Shown here in pieces: positions 587 through 30,060 of a stretch of 42,868 nucleotides of DNA. Within the stretch, counting starts at the first letter, position 1. Every line of letters begins with the position of its first letter. The stretch spans positions 1 through 42,868 of the forward strand of contig JANWVF010000019.1 of NCBI GenBank assembly GCA_025056965.1. The letters run 5' to 3'. The position numbers were made by a program, and so were the translations under genes. The DNA comes from Thermoflexales bacterium (GTDB lineage Bacteria; Chloroflexota; Anaerolineae; J036; Brachytrichaceae). The notes below the pieces were generated by a model, which made no database searches, was not told the DNA's origin, and worked only from the letters and a program-made list of their open reading frames with translations.

Positions 587-1669
587 TTAGCGAGTGATGG
601 AGAGCTCTTGGCCGGGGCGAATCAGGCAGTTATCGCCGAGCCGATTCTGGCGAATGAGCTCATCCACCGTGATATTGAACTGCGTGGCGATCGCCCAGCA
701 TGTGTCGCCTTGCTTCACAACGTAGGTGATGGTGTTGCTCGCAGTTATGGGTGCTTCAGTAGGTTGAGGCGCAGGTGCCTCGGTTGGCGTAGGCAGCGCG
801 GTTGGCGAGGGCAGAGGCGTCGGCTCGCTCGTTGCTGTAGCCGTAGCTGTTGCCGTCGCCGGTAGCGCGGCTTCGGTTGCTATGGCTGTGGTGGCGACCG
901 GCAACACATTCGTCGTCGGGATGGCATTGGCCATCGGCGTCGCTGTGACCGCAGCCGATCGGAATCGTAAGTCAGGGCCGATGCTCAAGATCGCAAGAGC
1001 AAGGGCGACGAGGGCAACGACGCCGAGGACTGCCCCTGCGATGATCGGCCAGCGAGGTGACCTGCGTGGCCGTGTCGCCGGAAAGGCAGTAGGACGCTTT
1101 GACGGCGTGGCCTTAGGTTGCAAAGGGCGAGCCGTTGTCACCGGTCGAGGCAGCGTCCGGTAGGCAGCCGAAGCCTGCCATCTCGGCCTATCCTCTGTCC
1201 CCGCCGCAGGGGCTGTGCGGCGAGGTTCGTGCGCGCCGAATGACTGCGTCGGCGTGGGCGAGGATGCATTATCCTCAACAGCCCACTCATCAACCTCCGC
1301 GCCGGCCAACGATTTGCTTGGCGCCTCGACCGATGATGACGCCGAGGCGCCGACGGCTGCGCCGGGCGTCGCCGGTGGCTCGCCGGCCGATGCGGCCGAT
1401 TCTGCAACCTGCGCGTTCGCCGAAGGTGGCGCTGCCGTTTCGCCGTTCGGCATTCGCATTTGGCGCTCTGATGCCGAAGTCGGCGGCGTCTGCTGTGCCG
1501 GCCGAGTCGGTGGCGCCGAGTCGGCGGGGCGCAAAGCCGCCGCGCGCTTGGATGTGACGCCGTCTGATGGCTCGAACACGTAGCCACACATGTCGCAGCT
1601 CGTCGCGTTGGCCGGATTGCTCGAGCCGCAAGACGGACAACGTTTTCTCAACTTGGCCGGTGAAGTCAC
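587..1669 (-). CDS. Zinc-ribbon / single TM / LysM membrane protein (one LysM)
   Basis: A 360-residue protein. At the N-terminus is a CxxC...CxxC zinc ribbon (C11, C14, C25, C28). A long Ala/Pro/Ser-rich segment follows, then basic residues and one membrane helix at about 208-230, a Thr/Pro/Ala-rich linker (240-312) and one LysM domain (314-358). By the positive-inside rule the zinc ribbon should be cytoplasmic and the LysM outside, where LysM domains usually bind GlcNAc-containing glycan. The LysM carries two cysteines (C324, C348) at places also occupied in both LysM domains of the upstream neighbour, suggesting a disulfide. It lies 18 bp after that neighbour, of which it looks like a shortened paralog. 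The low-complexity regions make other reading frames look open here; they are shadows. Function unknown; a wall-tethered scaffold or sensor is a guess. Confidence 0.88.
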   Translation of the reverse strand: MTSPAKLRKRCPSCGSSNPANATSCDMCGYVFEPSDGVTSKRAAALRPADSAPPTRPAQQTPPTSASERQMRMPNGETAAPPSANAQVAESAASAGEPPATPGAAVGASASSSVEAPSKSLAGAEVDEWAVEDNASSPTPTQSFGAHEPRRTAPAAGTEDRPRWQASAAYRTLPRPVTTARPLQPKATPSKRPTAFPATRPRRSPRWPIIAGAVLGVVALVALALAILSIGPDLRFRSAAVTATPMANAIPTTNVLPVATTAIATEAALPATATATATATSEPTPLPSPTALPTPTEAPAPQPTEAPITASNTITYVVKQGDTCWAIATQFNITVDELIRQNRLGDNCLIRPGQELSITR

Positions 1670-1687
1670 GTCGTTAGTCTCCCTGCG

Positions 1688-2953
1688 TTATGAGCCGGGC
1701 GTCGCCGTGGCTGTGGTCGGCTTGCGCCAGACAAACCTGCGCGGGACGCTCGGCGGGCTCAGATCAATATACATGCGCCGGTTAGTGCCCGGCTCGACCC
1801 CGATGAAGCGCTTCACCTGCACCCACCAGGCGATCTCCCGCTCATCGCGGTCGCCCAGGATGTCCTGCGTAAGCTTAAGCGACGTGGCCTTGGTCTCGAA
1901 GATTGGCACAGTCAGCGCGCCTGCCGGCTGAACCTGCACGACATACCACTCGTTCTGTTGCAGCATCCCTACTGTTAGCCATTGTAATGTCACGGTGGTC
2001 TGCGCGTCGCTGATCCGTGCGCCGTCAATTGGCTGCATAACAATTGGGGCGCTATAGCCGGTGCGCGGGGTCGGCGTTTGTAGCACGAAGGGCGTGGCCA
2101 TCGCGGCCGGCGTAGGCGTGGCAAAAGTGATCGTCAGCACTTGATTCATGCGGATTAGGCAATTCGCGTCTAGGTTGTTTTGTTGGATCAACTGATCGAG
2201 CGAGATATTGAACCTTTGGGCGATCTCGCTGCATGTGTCCCCGCCCTTCACCACATAAACGATCTGCGCGGGCAGCGTAGCTGTAGGCTCTTGCGGACCG
2301 CTCGCAGCGCCCGCTGCGGTAGCACCAGGCAGCGGGGTCGGCGAGGGCAGTGGGATCAACAACTTGTCGCCGATGCGAATCAGGCAGCGTTCGATGTCGA
2401 GGTTGTTGAGCGCGGCCAATTCGCCCAGCGACACGCCGAAGCGCTGCGCAATGCCGCCACATGTATCGCCGGACTGCACGACGTATTCGAGCGGTGGGAC
2501 GGGCGTAGGAGACGGCGCCGGCGTCGCAGTCGGCGGCGCGGTGGTCGGCGTCGGTGCAAAGGCAAGCTGTGATCCTCCGGCGATCAACCCGTTCTCCGCA
2601 TCTGTCGCATCTTGAATGACAACTTGGATGGTTGGCTCGGCAAACGGTTGGGTCAGGCCAATGCTCTGCGCAAGCCACATCGCGCCGAGGATGATGGCGG
2701 CAATGACGACGACTATGCCGATCACTCCCCAAGGGATCTGGGCCGCCGAAGATCGCCCGCGCGGCAGCGGTCGTACTCGATTGGTAGCCCGCGAGCGCTG
2801 AGGCTCGGCTGCCTTCGTTGACGGCTCGATGCGCGGCATGGCCTGCGTCGTGCCGAATTCGTGTCCGCACACGTCGCACACTAGTGCATCTTCGGGGGCG
2901 CGCGAACCGCACGAAGGGCAGCGTCTATAGCGCGATCTCGGAGGGCTGCTCAT
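1688..2953 (-). CDS. Zinc-ribbon / single TM / tandem LysM protein with C-terminal beta domain
   Basis: A 421-residue protein. The zinc ribbon (C12, C15, C26, C29) is followed by a basic stretch, a membrane helix at about 74-99, a Thr/Pro-rich linker, LysM 1 (156-201), a second Pro-rich linker, LysM 2 (231-277) and a C-terminal region (about 303-415) rich in predicted strands and aromatic residues. Fibronectin-III-like or another Ig-like fold is my inference for that last part. Each LysM has the GDTC...NxL...CLIR pattern with a cysteine pair. Expected topology is ribbon inside, LysM and C-terminal domain outside. It starts 28 bp after the HD-domain gene and is followed 18 bp later by a one-LysM paralog. 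No catalytic motif is seen, so binding rather than hydrolysis is likely. Confidence 0.9.
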   Translation of the reverse strand: MSSPPRSRYRRCPSCGSRAPEDALVCDVCGHEFGTTQAMPRIEPSTKAAEPQRSRATNRVRPLPRGRSSAAQIPWGVIGIVVVIAAIILGAMWLAQSIGLTQPFAEPTIQVVIQDATDAENGLIAGGSQLAFAPTPTTAPPTATPAPSPTPVPPLEYVVQSGDTCGGIAQRFGVSLGELAALNNLDIERCLIRIGDKLLIPLPSPTPLPGATAAGAASGPQEPTATLPAQIVYVVKGGDTCSEIAQRFNISLDQLIQQNNLDANCLIRMNQVLTITFATPTPAAMATPFVLQTPTPRTGYSAPIVMQPIDGARISDAQTTVTLQWLTVGMLQQNEWYVVQVQPAGALTVPIFETKATSLKLTQDILGDRDEREIAWWVQVKRFIGVEPGTNRRMYIDLSPPSVPRRFVWRKPTTATATPGS

Positions 2954-2981: not shown

Positions 2982-3569
2982 TCACTTCACTCCGTCTAGG
3001 CCGAGGGCGGCGGCGTTGCCTTGCATGGCTGCCAGGACGATGCCGATGTGCTCGTCGAGCGGGACGCCCAGGGCTGCTGCGGCTCGTTCGATCTCGTCGC
3101 GGTGCACGCCGGCAGCGAAAGCCTTCTCCTTCCACTTTTTCTTTACCGACGACACCTGAACGTCGGCGATGTTCTTCGTGGGACGAACAAATGTCACCGC
3201 AGCGATGAAGCCGGTCAGCTCGTCCACTGCGACCAAGGCGCGCTCCATGTCGTTTGCGGGCTGCACACCAGTGAGCTCGGGCGCGTGGGCGGCGATGCCA
3301 TGCAGGATCTCCTCCGGCCAGCCTCGCTCGCGCAAGTAAGCGATGCCGACGTTCGGATGCCCACGGCCATCTAAATTCGGGTATCGCTGGTAATCGAAGT
3401 CGTGAATTAAGCCGAGCACCCCCCACATTTCTGGATCGCCGCCGAAGCGCGGCGCGTAGGCGCGCATAGCCGTCTCGACAGAGAGCATATGCCGGATCAG
3501 GGCCGGATCGGTCGTCCACTCAGTGACGATGGCCCACGCAGCGTCGCGGTTATATCGAGAGTCGCTCAT
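2982..3569 (-). CDS. HD-domain phosphohydrolase family protein
   Basis: A 195-residue soluble protein with the metal-binding pattern of HD hydrolases: H27 in the first helix, H56-D57 in GLIHDFDY, then H71, H90 and H95. Known HD proteins hydrolyse phosphomonoesters or phosphodiesters of nucleotides or other small phosphorylated molecules; the substrate here is not evident. Its ATG overlaps the stop of the upstream YdcF-like gene in an ATGA arrangement (4 nt), indicating translational coupling in the minus-strand operon. It has no membrane segment and no GGDEF, PAS or response-regulator domain, so it is a stand-alone HD protein. Confidence 0.85.
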   Translation of the reverse strand: MSDSRYNRDAAWAIVTEWTTDPALIRHMLSVETAMRAYAPRFGGDPEMWGVLGLIHDFDYQRYPNLDGRGHPNVGIAYLRERGWPEEILHGIAAHAPELTGVQPANDMERALVAVDELTGFIAAVTFVRPTKNIADVQVSSVKKKWKEKAFAAGVHRDEIERAAAALGVPLDEHIGIVLAAMQGNAAALGLDGVK

Positions 3570-4258
3570 CGCGAATCCAAGAGTCTAGCAGATTCACTAT
3601 GGTTGCGCGATCGAGCGATCGGGAGCGGTTCGCTTGGCGTCGGTTGCGGCCGCGCAATGAACACGTCCCAGAACGCTTTTAGCGTGGCGCCGACTTCGCG
3701 AATTTGAAACCAGAACATGCGAGCGTAAGGGCGCTGGTCGGCCGGATAACCGACGACCGACAGCCCGAGCGCGCTGCACGTGAAGATGGCACGGTCGAGG
3801 TGATAGGCTTGGGTCACCAACACGGCGTCGCGCAGGCCAAAGACGGCGCGGGCGCGATAACACGTCTCGTAGGTGCTGCGGCCGGCGTAGTCGAGCAAGA
3901 TATCTGCATCTGGCACGCCGAGCTGAAGCGCTGTTTGGCGCATGACGCCCGGCTCATTGTAGTGAGCGAAGCGATTGTCGCCGCTCATCAGCAGCTTGTC
4001 CACCGCGCCGGCCTTATACAACGCCACTGCCGACGCAACGCGGTCGTATAGCACGGCGCTGGGCCGGCCGTTGCGCACGCCGGCGCCGAACACGATAGCC
4101 ACACGGTGACGCGGCACAGCCTCGGGCGTGCCGTAGATTCGGCCTTGCGCAAGTGCCATCGTGACCCCGCGCCCCAGCAGCGAGGTGCCCAACAGCAGGA
4201 TGGCGAGCCACAAGATAATTTGCTTGATCACAAGCGCATTGTATGCGCAAGACGCCAC
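3566..4258 (-). CDS. YdcF/SanA family (DUF218) membrane-anchored protein
   Basis: A 230-residue protein with one N-terminal membrane helix (about 11-31), then the DUF218 core: VAIVFGAGVRNGRPS, the region KLLMSGDN and a histidine in the segment TQAYHLDRA. E. coli SanA and YdcF belong to this family. SanA mutants lose an envelope barrier function, but the biochemical activity is not settled. The start chosen is GTG 4258, immediately after the cytidine deaminase stop; a second GTG nine codons downstream would give a more usual short cytoplasmic tail. The 3' end overlaps the HD gene by 4 nt. Family assignment is good; role in envelope maintenance is inference from the family. Confidence 0.85.
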   Translation of the reverse strand: MASCAYNALVIKQIILWLAILLLGTSLLGRGVTMALAQGRIYGTPEAVPRHRVAIVFGAGVRNGRPSAVLYDRVASAVALYKAGAVDKLLMSGDNRFAHYNEPGVMRQTALQLGVPDADILLDYAGRSTYETCYRARAVFGLRDAVLVTQAYHLDRAIFTCSALGLSVVGYPADQRPYARMFWFQIREVGATLKAFWDVFIARPQPTPSEPLPIARSRNHSESARLLDSR

Positions 4259-4648
4259 CTACCGCCGTTTCGCCTGCGCCAACTTCTCCGGCGTGAAAGC
4301 GTCCGGCAGCAGCGCGCCGACGGTGGTGAGCGTATAGTTGCCGCGCGCGTCGGCCTGGATGACCAAGGTGTTCAAGCCGAACTCGCTCATAAACTGCCGA
4401 CAGGCGCCGCACGGCGCCCCGCCGTTTTCGGTGACGACCGCGATAGCGACGAACTCACGCTCGCCCTCGCTGATCGCCTTGACGTAAGCCGTGCGTTCGC
4501 TACAGATCGCCAGGCCATACGAGGCGTTCTCCACGTTCACACCGCTATACACATTGCCCGAGGCGGCCAGCAAGGCCGAGCCGACGCGATAGCGCGAATA
4601 GGGTGCATGCGCATATTTCCGCGCGCGATTGGCGACCTCGATGAGCAC
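4259..4648 (-). CDS. cdd: Cytidine deaminase
   Basis: Deaminates cytidine or deoxycytidine to uridine or deoxyuridine in pyrimidine salvage. The protein shows HAPYSRYRVGSALL, the catalytic block NVENASYGLAICSERTA (zinc ligand C49, catalytic E51) and the second zinc site PCGACRQ (C80, C83), in the order expected of a homotetrameric CDA. I chose GTG 4648 because it gives 129 residues, the usual family length, and has GGAAGAGG eight bases upstream. The same frame stays open to 4792, but that extension is Lys/Gln/Pro/Ser-rich and would overlap the upstream transporter gene by 122 bp. The next gene (YdcF-like) begins directly after the stop. The enzyme looks intact. Confidence 0.93.
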   Translation of the reverse strand: MLIEVANRARKYAHAPYSRYRVGSALLAASGNVYSGVNVENASYGLAICSERTAYVKAISEGEREFVAIAVVTENGGAPCGACRQFMSEFGLNTLVIQADARGNYTLTTVGALLPDAFTPEKLAQAKRR

Positions 4649-4670
4649 GCGGATGACCTCTTCCGGCAGC

Positions 4671-6065
4671 TCATCCGGCAGCGGCTTTGTTGACGGCGTT
4701 TGAGAGTCGCTTGTGCTCGGCTTCTGTGGCGTCGTCTGCCGCGCGCGATTGCTCTTGGGTTGCCTGCTGCGCGTTTGTTTGGCTTGGCGCATGCGTCACC
4801 TTCACTTTTAGGATGCGTCGGTCGTTCACAGTAAGCACCTCAAAGACGAACCCGCCATGCTCAACCTTCTCGCCGACCACCGGCACCTTGCCTAATTGGT
4901 CGTAGATGAAGCCGCCCAGCGTGTCGCTTTCGCCCTCAGGCAGCTCAACCTTGAGCAATTCGCTGGCGTCCTCGATGTTCATGCCGGCGTCGAGGATGTA
5001 GCCGTTGCCCTCCGGCAGCGGCACGATATCGGGCTCCTCTCTGTCGTATTCGTCTTGGATCTCGCCGACGATCTCCTCTAGGATGTCCTCGATGGTCACT
5101 AGGCCGGCCGTGCCGCCGTATTCATCCACCACGATGGAGACGTGCACGCGGCGCTTCTGCAACTCGTGCAACAGCTCAATCACGCGCTTGGATTCCGGCG
5201 TGAAATACACCTGGCGCAGCATCTTCTCCAGCGGCGGTTTCGTGCCGTCGCGCAGCGCAGCCAGCATGTCCTTGGCGTAGAGAATGCCGATGATTTCGTC
5301 AATCGTGCCGCGGTAGACCGGGATGCGCGAGTGGCCGGCCGAGATAACTACGTCAAGCGCCTCGTCGAACGGGGTGTTGACCTCCAGCGCTACCATAGCA
5401 ATGCGCGGCACCATCACCTCGCGCGCGACCGTGTCACCGAAGTCCAGCACCGAGAGGATCATCTCCTTCTCGCCCTCCTCGATCAACCCTTCCTCTTCGC
5501 CGGCGTCCACCATCGTCTTGATCTCCTCTTCGGTGACGAGCGTGGCGCCTTCGCGCTTCTGGCCGCCCATCGGGACGGACAACAGGTTGCTCAACACCAC
5601 CGCAAAGCGCACGAACGGCGCGAGCAACACGCTCATCAACTGCACTGGGCGAACGAGCGCCAGCGCGAGTGGCTCGGTGTAGCGCAGCGCTAATGCCTCT
5701 GGCACCAGCCGGCCAAAGACAAACAGGAAGAGAGCCGCGGCGAGCGCGACGATCAGAAAGGCGAGGGCCTGCGCTGCATCCGTCGGCAGACCCTCTATCG
5801 TCGAAGTAAGCCAGTGCGATACCGACGGCGTGAAGCCCAAGGCGGCGATGCCCGCCGCCAACACTAGCCCCAGCAACGCGCCTACTTCTGCCGTGGCCAG
5901 CAGGCGGCCGGAGTTCTCAGTCAACTGTTGGATGGCTCGCGCCGAGGCCACTCCCTTCTTCTCCAACTCAACCAGGCGGGAGCGGCGCATGTTGATCAAT
6001 GCGCTGCGGGCGACTGCGAAGAATGCGCGTAATGCAGTGGCCAACACGAATAGCAACGCGACCAT
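4671..6065 (-). CDS. CorC/HlyC (CNNM-like) transporter: DUF21, paired CBS and CorC_HlyC domains
   Basis: A 464-residue membrane protein. The N-terminal DUF21/CNNM domain (about 1-185) has several hydrophobic helices and the family motif SALINMRRSRLVELE. A CBS pair follows (about 205-325; REVMVPR, HSRIPVYRGTIDEIIGI, VVDEYGGTAGLVTIEDILEEIVGEI), then the C-terminal CorC_HlyC domain (about 340-425) and a polar Ala/Gln-rich tail. Family members are often called hemolysins but are better understood as Mg2+ (or other divalent cation) transporters or regulators controlled by nucleotide binding to the CBS pair. ATG 6065 is preceded by GAGGG eight bases upstream. It lies 59 bp after glmU. The start is slightly shorter than in some relatives, but the motifs are complete. 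Confidence 0.92.
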   Translation of the reverse strand: MVALLFVLATALRAFFAVARSALINMRRSRLVELEKKGVASARAIQQLTENSGRLLATAEVGALLGLVLAAGIAALGFTPSVSHWLTSTIEGLPTDAAQALAFLIVALAAALFLFVFGRLVPEALALRYTEPLALALVRPVQLMSVLLAPFVRFAVVLSNLLSVPMGGQKREGATLVTEEEIKTMVDAGEEEGLIEEGEKEMILSVLDFGDTVAREVMVPRIAMVALEVNTPFDEALDVVISAGHSRIPVYRGTIDEIIGILYAKDMLAALRDGTKPPLEKMLRQVYFTPESKRVIELLHELQKRRVHVSIVVDEYGGTAGLVTIEDILEEIVGEIQDEYDREEPDIVPLPEGNGYILDAGMNIEDASELLKVELPEGESDTLGGFIYDQLGKVPVVGEKVEHGGFVFEVLTVNDRRILKVKVTHAPSQTNAQQATQEQSRAADDATEAEHKRLSNAVNKAAAG

Positions 6066-6124: not shown

Positions 6125-7504
6125 CTACGCCTCCAGCTTGCGAATCACGCGCGCCGGCACGCCGACAGCCAGCGTTGCGGCCGGCACGTCCTTGGTGACC
6201 ACGGCGCCGGCGCCGGTGCGCGCCCGCTCGCCCACGGTGACTGGCGCCACCAACATCGTGTCGCTGCCGATGAACGCATGATCGCCGATGATTGTGCGGT
6301 TCTTCTTCACCCCATCGAAGTTGCAGGTGATCGTGCCGGCGCCGATGTTGACGTGCGCGCCAACAATGGCGTCCCCCAGATAGCTGAAGTGCCCCATGTG
6401 GCTGCCTGCGCCCAGCGTGCTGTTTTTGATCTCCGCGAAGTTGCCCACGTGCGCGCCGGCACCGACGTGCGCGCCCGGGCGCAGGTGTGAGAACGGCCCA
6501 ATATGCACATCGTCTTCGACTCGTGCGTGCTCGATCATGGACTGCACGATGTGCACGCGGTCGCCGATCTGCGACTCGACGATGTAAGAGTTCGGCCCGA
6601 TCAGGCAATCGCTGCCGATGCGTGTGTGGCCGACTAGGTGAGTGTTGGGCAGAATGACGGTGTCCACACCGATCTCCACACCCTCCTCGATGTAGGTCGT
6701 CTCGGGATCGGTGATGGTCACGCCATTGAGCATGTGCCGACGGTTGATGCGTCGGCGCAGCGCGCGTTCGGCGTCGGCGAGGTCCACGCGGGTGTTGATG
6801 CCGATGCACTCATCGCGGTCATCTGTCACCAGGGCGCGCACCTCGCGCCCGTCGGCGACGGCAATCTCGATCAGGTCGGTCAGGAAGTATTCGCCTTTCT
6901 GCGGATTGGGGCGAATGCGCTTCAGCGCGCCCCACAACCACCTGCCGTCGAAGCAATACGCGCCGGCGTTCAGCTCGCGGATCGCAAGCTGCGCCGGTGT
7001 GCATGCGATCTCCTCGATGATAGCCAGCACTCGCTCGCCTTGCGCATCGCGGATCACGCGGCCGAACCCGCGCGGGTTGTCCGAGGTCAAGGTGAGCATC
7101 GTGATCGCTGCCCCATGGCGCTCGCGCAACGCGATCAGTTGTCGCAGCGTCTCCGGCCGCAGAAGCGGCATATCGCCGTAGGTGACGACGACCTGCGGTG
7201 CGTCGGCAGCATAGGCTTCGGCCTGCATCAGCGCGTGACCGGTGCCCAGGAGTTCGGCTTGCGACGCAAAGACGGCGCGCTCACCGATCGCGGCGCGCAC
7301 GGCTTCGGCGTCGTGTCCAACAACGACGATGGGCACATTTCCGGTTGCCTGAGCTGCAGTAGTGATACAGTGGTCTATCAGAGGGCGACCGCCGAGCGAG
7401 TGCAGGATCTTGGGGCGCTTCGACTTCATGCGTGTCCCCGCGCCGGCGGCGAGCACGACCACGCAAGCGTTAGAGTGCGGATGGTCCGATGCGTCAGACA
7501 TCAT
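6125..7504 (-). CDS. glmU: Bifunctional GlcNAc-1-P uridyltransferase / GlcN-1-P acetyltransferase
   Basis: GlmU makes UDP-GlcNAc from glucosamine-1-phosphate, acetyl-CoA and UTP, feeding peptidoglycan and other glycans. The N-terminal pyrophosphorylase signature LAAGAGTRMKSKRPK lies at about 18-32. The C-terminal half is a left-handed beta-helix of hexapeptide repeats containing HFSYLGD (catalytic-type H372) and TITCNFDGVKKN. ATG 7504 (or ATG 7501, the next codon) gives 458-459 residues, normal for the family. The frame continues upstream to 7663, but that extension reads through the tRNA-Gln gene and a hairpin, so it is rejected. No strong ribosome-binding site is visible. First protein gene of the minus-strand operon that includes the LysM proteins. 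Confidence 0.95.
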   Translation of the reverse strand: MMSDASDHPHSNACVVVLAAGAGTRMKSKRPKILHSLGGRPLIDHCITTAAQATGNVPIVVVGHDAEAVRAAIGERAVFASQAELLGTGHALMQAEAYAADAPQVVVTYGDMPLLRPETLRQLIALRERHGAAITMLTLTSDNPRGFGRVIRDAQGERVLAIIEEIACTPAQLAIRELNAGAYCFDGRWLWGALKRIRPNPQKGEYFLTDLIEIAVADGREVRALVTDDRDECIGINTRVDLADAERALRRRINRRHMLNGVTITDPETTYIEEGVEIGVDTVILPNTHLVGHTRIGSDCLIGPNSYIVESQIGDRVHIVQSMIEHARVEDDVHIGPFSHLRPGAHVGAGAHVGNFAEIKNSTLGAGSHMGHFSYLGDAIVGAHVNIGAGTITCNFDGVKKNRTIIGDHAFIGSDTMLVAPVTVGERARTGAGAVVTKDVPAATLAVGVPARVIRKLEA

Positions 7505-7520
7505 CTGAATTTGAAAACTA

Positions 7521-7571
7521 AGAACCGAGAACCGCGTGCCGCGCGATATACGGGCCTCGATTCTCGGTTCT
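7521..7571 (-). terminator. Inverted repeat between tRNA-Gln and glmU, likely terminator
   Basis: On the minus strand the 11-base arm AGAACCGAGAA (7571-7561) pairs perfectly with TTCTCGGTTCT (7531-7521), with a 29-nt GC-rich loop. The T-rich stretch TAGTTTTC follows the second arm. It lies four bases past the tRNA-Gln 3' end, so it may end the tRNA transcript before glmU or act in the glmU leader. The long loop makes it less typical than a classic terminator. Confidence 0.55.
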
Positions 7572-7574
7572 CCA

Positions 7575-7646
7575 CTGGGGCGGCTGGATTCGAACCAACG
7601 AATGTCGGATCCAGAGTCCGATGCCTTACCACTTGGCGACGCCCCA
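7575..7646 (-). tRNA. tRNA-Gln (anticodon CUG)
   Basis: A 72-nt cloverleaf on the minus strand. The acceptor arm TGGGGCG pairs with CGCCCCA, discriminator G at 7575. The D-arm has GCC AAGTGGTAA GGC. The anticodon arm is TCGGA / TCCGA around loop CTCTGGA, giving anticodon CTG, which reads CAG. The T-arm is GTTGG / CCAGC with loop TTCGAAT. The U1-A72 pair is typical of bacterial tRNA-Gln. CCA is not encoded. A -10-like TAAAAT lies 17 bp upstream. Confidence 0.96.
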
Positions 7647-7663
7647 TCGCTGTTGCATGCCAT

Positions 7664-28786: not shown

Positions 28787-29146
28787 ATGGATACAGCGCG
28801 CAGCGCGCCTGCCCTGGTCGCAAACTCAGCGGAGACCTTCCCCGCAGAGCTGGGGCGATTGCACACGGTGCTCAAGTCGCTCAGCGAGCCGAACCGGCTG
28901 CGCATCTTCGCGCTCCTCACGCATGGCGAACGTTGCGTGTGCGACATCGAGTCGGCGATGACGATACCGCAGAACTTGGCTTCGCATCATCTGCGTGTCC
29001 TACGCGAGGCCGGCCTGATCGAGGTGCGAAGGGAAGGGCGTTGGGCATACTATCGGATCAACAAAGTTTATCTGTCCGAGGTGTATCCCGCATTGTGCAG
29101 CCTGTTCGATCCGAACTCCATCAGCGACGCTCGTGCTGCCTGCTGA
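28787..29146 (+). CDS. arsR: ArsR/SmtB-family metalloregulator
   Basis: A 119-residue winged-helix repressor. LKSLSEPNRLRIFALL begins the DNA-binding core, ERCVCDIE carries the metal-site pair C50 and C52 typical of As(III)-sensing ArsR, and NLASHHLRVLREAGLIEVRREGRWAYYRI is the recognition helix and wing. The protein ends in a cysteine (AAC), a possible third ligand. It should release DNA on binding arsenite or antimonite. It heads a three-gene set with two arsenate-reductase-like genes, 25 bp before the first. Confidence 0.92.
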   Translation: MDTARSAPALVANSAETFPAELGRLHTVLKSLSEPNRLRIFALLTHGERCVCDIESAMTIPQNLASHHLRVLREAGLIEVRREGRWAYYRINKVYLSEVYPALCSLFDPNSISDARAAC

Positions 29147-29171
29147 TCCTTATACCGCATTGCTGGCAACT

Positions 29172-29612
29172 ATGACCGAATCTCCCAAAAAACGAGTGCT
29201 GATCTTATGCACGGCCAATTCGGCACGCAGCCAGATGGCCGAGGGTATCCTGCGCTGGCTGGGAGGCGACCGCTACGAGGTCTTCAGCGCCGGAACTCGA
29301 GCGACCGGTGTCAATCCCTTTGCCATCCGTGTGATGGATGAGATTGGCGTGGACATCCGCAACCAGTATTCAAAGACCTACGAGCAATTCATCGGTCAGC
29401 CCTTCGACGCGGTCATCACCGTATGCGATGACGCAGCTGAGACTTGCCCCTTTCTGCCGGGTGATTACCGGCGCATTCATTGGAGCTTCCCCGATCCCGC
29501 CGCCGTAGTGGGCGATGAAGCCAAGCTTCAGGCATTTCGTCAAGTGCGGGACGGGTTGATCGAGCGATTCAAGGTGTTCATTGAAACGAACCAGGAGGTT
29601 TCTCGTGCCTAA
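29172..29612 (+). CDS. arsC: Arsenate reductase, thioredoxin-coupled / low-MW phosphatase family (first copy)
   Basis: A 146-residue protein of the LMW tyrosine-phosphatase fold. The P-loop is C13-TANSA-R19, and a redox cysteine pair occurs as VCDDAAETCP (C85, C92), matching the three-cysteine relay of Bacillus/Staphylococcus ArsC. WSFPDPAAVVG supplies the general-acid aspartate. Reduces arsenate to arsenite using thioredoxin. ATG 29172 is chosen because the family starts a few residues before the P-loop; an in-frame ATG at 29133 overlaps arsR. Its 3' end overlaps the second copy by 8 bp. Confidence 0.88.
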   Translation: MTESPKKRVLILCTANSARSQMAEGILRWLGGDRYEVFSAGTRATGVNPFAIRVMDEIGVDIRNQYSKTYEQFIGQPFDAVITVCDDAAETCPFLPGDYRRIHWSFPDPAAVVGDEAKLQAFRQVRDGLIERFKVFIETNQEVSRA

Positions 29613-30060
29613 GTCCAACGTGCTGTTCCTATGCACCGGTAATTCGGCCCGCAGCCAGATGGCCGAAGCGTTTCTGCGCCACTACGCCAGCGACCTGTTC
29701 AATGCCTATAGCGCCGGCCTAGAACCAAAGGGGATGAATCCCTTTACCGTCAGAGTAATGAATGAGATCGGCATCAGCGTCGAAGGGCAATACTCCAAGA
29801 GCCTGCGCGAGTATCTCGGCAAGCAATTATTCGCCTATTTGGTCACCGTGTGCGCTGATGCTGAGGCGCGCTGCCCGTCGGTGTGGCCGGGCGTGCAGCA
29901 CCGGCTGCACTGGAAGTTTGACGATCCTGCTGCCTTTGAGGGCAGCGAAGAGGAGAAACTGGCCAAGTTCCGTGAAGTGCGCGATCAGATCAAAGCTGCC
30001 ATCGAAGCCTTCGTCGCGCAGGAACGGGCGAAACAGGCCGCGTCGGCAGCCGCGCGTTGA
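29605..30060 (+). CDS. arsC: Arsenate reductase, thioredoxin-coupled / low-MW phosphatase family (second copy)
   Basis: A 151-residue paralog of the preceding gene with P-loop C10-TGNSA-R16 and redox pair C83 and C90 (VCADAEARCP), then the acid loop WKFDDPAAFEG. It is closer to classical ArsC in the tail (EEEKLAKFREVRDQIKA) than the first copy. GTG 29605 is chosen for the AGGAGG six bases upstream, inside the first arsC; the frame is open from 29581. Two adjacent three-cysteine ArsC proteins may differ in substrate. No arsenite efflux gene is adjacent. The C-terminus is Ala/Gln-rich. Confidence 0.88.
   Translation: MPKSNVLFLCTGNSARSQMAEAFLRHYASDLFNAYSAGLEPKGMNPFTVRVMNEIGISVEGQYSKSLREYLGKQLFAYLVTVCADAEARCPSVWPGVQHRLHWKFDDPAAFEGSEEEKLAKFREVRDQIKAAIEAFVAQERAKQAASAAAR

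Follow-up and report, generated by a model that had tools for sequence, protein, structure and literature searches.

In a hot-spring Chloroflexota bacterium, two adjacent genes, here called LysM_A and LysM_B, encode membrane proteins predicted to join an intracellular zinc-binding knob to wall sugar-binding domains (Table 1). The window, that is, the whole stretch of contig JANWVF010000019.1 analysed here, comprises 42,868 nucleotides. A sequence-only reading of this DNA had placed two adjacent genes here, and the open reading frames, both on the minus strand, bear this out. The same reading had given both proteins one order of parts, a zinc ribbon, a basic segment, one transmembrane (TM) helix, a Thr/Pro linker and LysM, reaching from the cytoplasm through the membrane to the wall. 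Domain profiles, a structure model and topology signals support both the order and the topology.

Table 1. Features of the two LysM genes and of the genes preceding them (positions in the window).
Feature	Position	Strand	Remarks
LysM_B gene	587..1669	-	360 aa, GTG start; ribbon, 178-residue segment, TM, linker, one LysM at the end
LysM of LysM_B, Cys324/Cys348	593..724	-	Pfam, Cys positions
LysM_B TM segment, residues 207-231	977..1051	-	hydrophobic stretch picked by eye
LysM_B zinc ribbon, Cys11/14/25/28	1586..1639	-	two CxxC knuckles
LysM_A gene	1688..2953	-	421 aa, ATG start; ribbon, basic segment, TM, Thr/Pro linker, LysM1, linker, LysM2, FN3-fold domain
LysM_A C-terminal FN3-fold domain, residues 299-412	1718..2059	-	model pLDDT mostly 88-96; Foldseek; VIA
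LysM2 of LysM_A, residues 232-276, Cys241/Cys265	2126..2260	-	Pfam, Cys positions
LysM1 of LysM_A, residues 157-201, Cys165/Cys190	2351..2485	-	Pfam, Cys positions
LysM_A TM helix, residues 75-99	2657..2731	-	one strong hydrophobic stretch, modelled as a helix; net charge +2 on its N-terminal and -1 on its C-terminal side, as for an inside N-terminus
LysM_A zinc ribbon, Cys12-x2-Cys15 ... Cys26-x2-Cys29	2867..2920	-	model pLDDT about 84; below Pfam cut-offs
HD-domain phosphohydrolase-like gene	2982..3569	-	TIGR00277 over cut-off; directly upstream of LysM_A
SanA-like DUF218 protein	3566..4258	-	same operon
Cytidine deaminase	4259..4792	-	same operon
CNNM/CorC-type membrane protein	4671..6065	-	same operon
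glmU	6125..7663	-	head of the run

The LysM model PF01476 passes its cut-off of 20.9 bits over two stretches of LysM_A (98 bits, E 2.9e-28) and over one stretch of LysM_B (54.8 bits, E 8.7e-15). Both CxxC knuckles of the zinc ribbon are present in each protein. The zinc-ribbon models of Pfam (PF13240, PF10571 and kin) stay below their cut-offs in the pair, with best scores of 23.6 against 29 bits and 22.3 against 25 bits; the 25-bit cut-off of PF13240 is passed by relatives, with 66.5 bits at locus L061 and 27.3 bits at L198. The predicted cytoplasmic segment of LysM_B between ribbon and TM is rich in Pro, Ala, Ser and Thr. LysM_A holds eight cysteines, four in the ribbon and two in each LysM, and LysM_B holds six, four in the ribbon and two in the LysM, with none elsewhere in either protein. 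In all three LysMs one cysteine follows GDT and the other precedes LIR, just as had been noticed from the letters.

The structure model of LysM_A contains the ribbon, the TM helix, two beta-alpha-alpha-beta LysM folds and a fibronectin type III (FN3) fold. The C-terminal beta domain that the sequence-only reading had seen in the two-LysM protein is thus confirmed, and is FN3-like by the model, Foldseek and VIA. With the LysM_A model as query, Foldseek gave 25 matches of E 0.001 or better; these include FN3 domains, which match singly at E about 4e-4. VIA aligned the C-terminal domain with FN3 folds at Z about 10 and 2.5–4 Å over about 90–100 residues. Sequence profiles detected no FN3 family in LysM_A at E up to 0.1. 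The model PF23473, which represents LysM3 of plant LYK4/5, exceeds its 29.3-bit cut-off on LysM_A (47.5 bits) and at L198 (55.0) and L195 (31.4). Its passing on bacterial proteins indicates that PF23473 is not plant-specific.

The window belongs to a Roseilinea-type family, f1 (families are given by code only), and the nearest named loci are those of Candidatus Roseilinea and Thermoflexales MAGs. A search of 60 relatives found strong LysM_A orthologs in 26 of 28 f1 genomes, and weaker matches with the full architecture spread over the class Anaerolineae. The sequence-only reading had staked its architecture on relatives keeping the ribbon and the helix, and most do: among 62 aligned family members the TM is present in all, and the ribbon in 56, in one to four copies each. 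The six members lacking a ribbon include L021, which may be a broken reading frame. In 43 members the TM is preceded by more charge than follows it, and an N-terminus inside is not favoured in 19. The architecture is therefore that of an Anaerolineae family and not a local oddity; ribbon-TM-LysM2-FN3 is an old family of the class. It defines a class-wide family of envelope proteins, ribbon-TM-LysM-LysM-FN3, so far without a name, in bacteria about whose wall little has been learnt. The accessible part of the literature on bacterial LysM disulfides, on LysM or TcaA combined with a zinc ribbon, and on cysteine-bearing LysMs in Chloroflexota holds nothing on this family.

LysM_B is seen in the window's genus alone: it adjoins LysM_A in all eight loci of genus g1, and was not found in the remaining 18 f1 loci examined, some of which end at contig ends. 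It is a genus-specific shorter relative with one LysM, a long disordered cytoplasmic segment and no FN3 domain. The mean identity of its LysM is 0.53 to LysM1 and 0.56 to LysM2, which points to neither of the two in particular as the LysM it might have been copied from.

Both cysteines of the GDTC/C-LIR pair occur in 60 of 60 operon LysMs of f1, 59 being found by script and the 60th, which the profile clips, by eye. The pair occurs in none of the 18 other LysMs of the window's own genome, one of which has a cysteine at the second site only, nor in any of 28 other LysMs from 20 further f1 genomes (one stretch each). The combined count of 0/46 non-operon LysMs in 21 f1 genomes supports the earlier claim that the pair is rare among bacterial LysMs. 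At the first-counted loci of other Anaerolineae families, the pair is found in 1 of 59 LysM domains. A profile of the cysteine-bearing LysMs matched 254 of 301 genomes of the phylum, and the best 30 loci were read. Among these, f27 and f34 proteins have the GDTC/C-LIR pair in LysM1, and in LysM2 a pair of another kind, placed at the domain borders. The GDTC/C-LIR pair recurs in two f87 proteins that differ in architecture; three f49 proteins ranking high lack it. A pair restricted to the window's own genome is ruled out by the f1 relatives, f27 and f34, and a pair absent outside f1 by f27, f34 and the two f87 proteins. The cysteine pair is thus real and wider than the window and, on the sequences compared, is a trait of the clade rather than of this genome alone; most relatives lack it.

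Counts of extracytoplasmic cysteines bear on what the pair does. LysM_A has exactly four in 24 of 24 f1, 15 of 15 f27 and 2 of 2 f34 proteins. Of the 21 other relatives 15 have none, and the remainder 1, 2 or 4. In all eight LysM_B proteins exactly two cysteines fall within the last 130 residues. Such strict pairing is as predicted by a disulfide, and the matched pair probably forms an internal staple of this kind. DsbA-like Thioredoxin_4 proteins are encoded in 28/28 f1 genomes. VKOR, a candidate for re-oxidising DsbA, was found in 0/28 f1 genomes against 15/32 genomes of other families (14 over the cut-off), and its absence from f1 is a mild point against the disulfide.

Each operon LysM of f1, and in part those of f27 and f34, would be stapled by a bond that joins the first loop (GDTC) to the one ahead of the second strand (C-LIR). 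We take the sugar groove to be lined by these two loops; the staple would then fix the sugar-binding site, without the border bond of other LysMs. A border-type cysteine pair, one member of which immediately precedes the first strand while the other ends the second, is present in 13 of the 46 non-operon f1 LysMs (2/18 from the window's genome and 11/28 from other f1 genomes). The border pair was seen at L053, L056, L163-L168, L170, L172, L175, L176 and L179; no domain has both it and the groove-loop pair. Two alternative LysM cysteine pairs in the same bacteria make a natural experiment on the effect of a disulfide in wall binding.

The sequence-only reading had likened the pair to the disulfides that stabilise plant and fungal LysMs. 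The likeness in its original form is ruled out by Ecp6, the best described of the fungal LysM proteins, whose disulfides are reported to join the domain borders (PMC9614474). Ecp6 (PDB 4b8v), with its disulfide-bearing LysMs, is the top Foldseek match to the LysM_A model (E 2.4e-6) and the top PDB sequence match to LysM_A. However, it has no cysteine at the columns of the LysM_A pair, and the LysMs of LysM_A and LysM_B lack the border cysteines. The fungal comparison instead fits the border-pair LysMs, the border pair matching the Ecp6 disulfides, and not the operon LysMs. Tal6-type fungal LysMs are likewise stabilised by cysteines, but fungal-specific LysMs are reported to have four cysteines, which may form two bridges (PMC5662087), against two per LysM in LysM_A and LysM_B. 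LysM_A agrees with the LysM domain of Pfam in its PF01476 score and its modelled beta-alpha-alpha-beta fold. It differs by the GDT/LIR cysteine pair, which the aligned bacterial LysMs of the PDB lack.

The domain order, topology signals, matched cysteines, conservation and gene neighbours are read from the sequences, and on them we somewhat favour a LysM_A that serves as a membrane-to-peptidoglycan tether with disulfide-stapled LysMs; the disulfide, glycan binding, tethering and a cytoplasmic partner are what we infer. LysM_A would span the cytoplasmic membrane once and tether it to peptidoglycan. Outside, its two LysMs would bind wall glycan that contains GlcNAc, a further contact may be made by the FN3-fold domain at the tip, and the zinc ribbon would act as a cytoplasmic docking knob. 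MurG-like matches reach E 1e-50 or better in 27/28 f1 genomes; most of them lie under the curated cut-off, and they suggest that f1 cells make peptidoglycan.

The known zinc-ribbon membrane protein TcaA offers a similar order of a zinc ribbon, then one TM, then an extracellular part; it is not known to contain a LysM. The TcaA profile of NCBIfam, NF053815, gives only 13 bits against a cut-off of 550. A peptidoglycan-like layer and a PilO-LysM fusion have been reported from a Chloroflexota cousin, Litorilinea (PMC13319060). The fusion resembles LysM_A as a Chloroflexota membrane protein whose LysM is thought to grip peptidoglycan. It differs in being a PilO homolog near archaellum genes, and zinc is unmentioned in the main text of that paper (PMC13319060).

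The sequence-only reading had the LysM genes downstream of glmU. This holds, with the CNNM, cytidine deaminase, DUF218 and HD genes lying in between. Many f1 loci preserve the run glmU - CNNM - cytidine deaminase - DUF218 - HD - LysM_A. Only HD - LysM_A of the run is found in L039, L044, L045 and L047. Of the 26 f1 genomes that have both genes, 25 place the HD gene directly upstream of LysM_A, the 26th being split between contigs. Among 32 genomes from other Anaerolineae families, 9 have it close to the LysM_A ortholog and in the same orientation; in one of these the HD gene is cut by the contig end, and in two the gaps are 227 and 446 bases. In one f1 genome, G007, the DUF218, HD, LysM_A and LysM_B genes were not found, while glmU, CNNM and the deaminase remain.

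These arrangements suggest that the HD gene directly upstream, not glmU, is the best lead to a cytoplasmic partner, and the linkage provides a concrete candidate for asking whether the LysM_A family signals. They also argue for the strongest rival to the tether, a signalling receptor whose LysM/FN3 part would read the condition of the wall and whose ribbon would control the upstream HD phosphohydrolase, which would hydrolyse a nucleotide messenger. The model of the HD protein (pLDDT 95.6) resembles the HD folds of PgpH, YqeK, alarmone hydrolases and glycyl-tRNA synthetase; Foldseek gave no match at E 0.001 or better. Residues H27, H56-D57, H71, H95 and D116 are invariant and fit the metal-ligand motif of HD proteins, so that both the fold and the metal-ligand residues are present. 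Yet the HD protein, whose group we take to be COG2316, is widespread, with 566 confirmed stretches in the genome collection, and occurs in many phyla without a LysM neighbour. Among the best 80 of the 566 loci, a LysM gene starts within 40 bases past the end of the HD gene on the same strand in 12, and none of these 12 is titled as a non-Chloroflexota organism. A search of the literature on COG2316 gave no useful paper. In f27 the HD gene is located away from LysM_A, and a CNNM/CorC gene is the neighbour instead: in 9 of 16 loci it precedes the LysM_A ortholog directly or at a distance of up to about 430 bases. The seeming joint loss of HD and LysM_A in G014 is put down to a contig that ends just after DUF218, and gene order by itself is no proof that ribbon and HD protein interact. 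We regard the HD-linked receptor as rather unlikely.

The f27 loci with CNNM beside LysM_A are L190-L193, L199, L201 and L207-L209, which makes CNNM a second recurrent neighbour of the family. At L089, L090, L093, L094 and L132, LysM proteins stand convergent beside the HD gene, and their C-terminus appears L,D-transpeptidase-like by eye.

To the tether may also be opposed a quirk of the lineage, in which the disulfide does no more than stabilise an exposed fold, LysM_A being an ordinary wall-anchoring protein without special function. A family tree of 62 rows was built with the cysteine columns kept in a first run and masked in a second; partial, duplicate or fused sequences, or those outside the filter, were left out (L016, L024, L030/L079, L076, L078, L080, L113, L118 and L192). 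The LysM1 pair requires one change on the tree with the cysteine columns and two on the masked tree. A single clade, and thus a single origin, for the LysM1 pair is not rejected (AU p 0.952, cysteines masked), so the pair may simply be inherited. The pair is, however, kept in every f1 member and is present in LysM2 and LysM_B as well; in LysM2 it is confined to f1 on this tree. Stabilisation of an exposed fold also fits poorly with the thermophilic Thermoflexus relatives L099 and L102, which lack the pair. This explanation is unlikely, and ranks below the HD-linked receptor.

A bolder reading unites several of these elements. LysM_A would be a one-helix wall receptor of the Anaerolineae's own, whose disulfide-clamped double LysM and FN3 read peptidoglycan and whose ribbon docks and controls the adjacent HD nucleotide hydrolase, coupling the wall state, and perhaps oxygen via the clamp, to a nucleotide signal. 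We hold this to be doubtful. Very improbable is a pair that acts as a redox or metal switch instead of a constant staple: its position at the groove loops could couple redox state to binding, and two reports describe hot-spring phototrophic mats as super-oxic by day and anoxic by night (PMC11788075) and Roseilinea as having respiration genes (PMC8446752), but strict pairing and total conservation suit a structural bond equally.

Elsewhere in the window, positions 28787-30060 hold a small ArsR-type-like open reading frame followed by two that resemble low-molecular-weight phosphatases or arsenate reductases, all recognised by eye.
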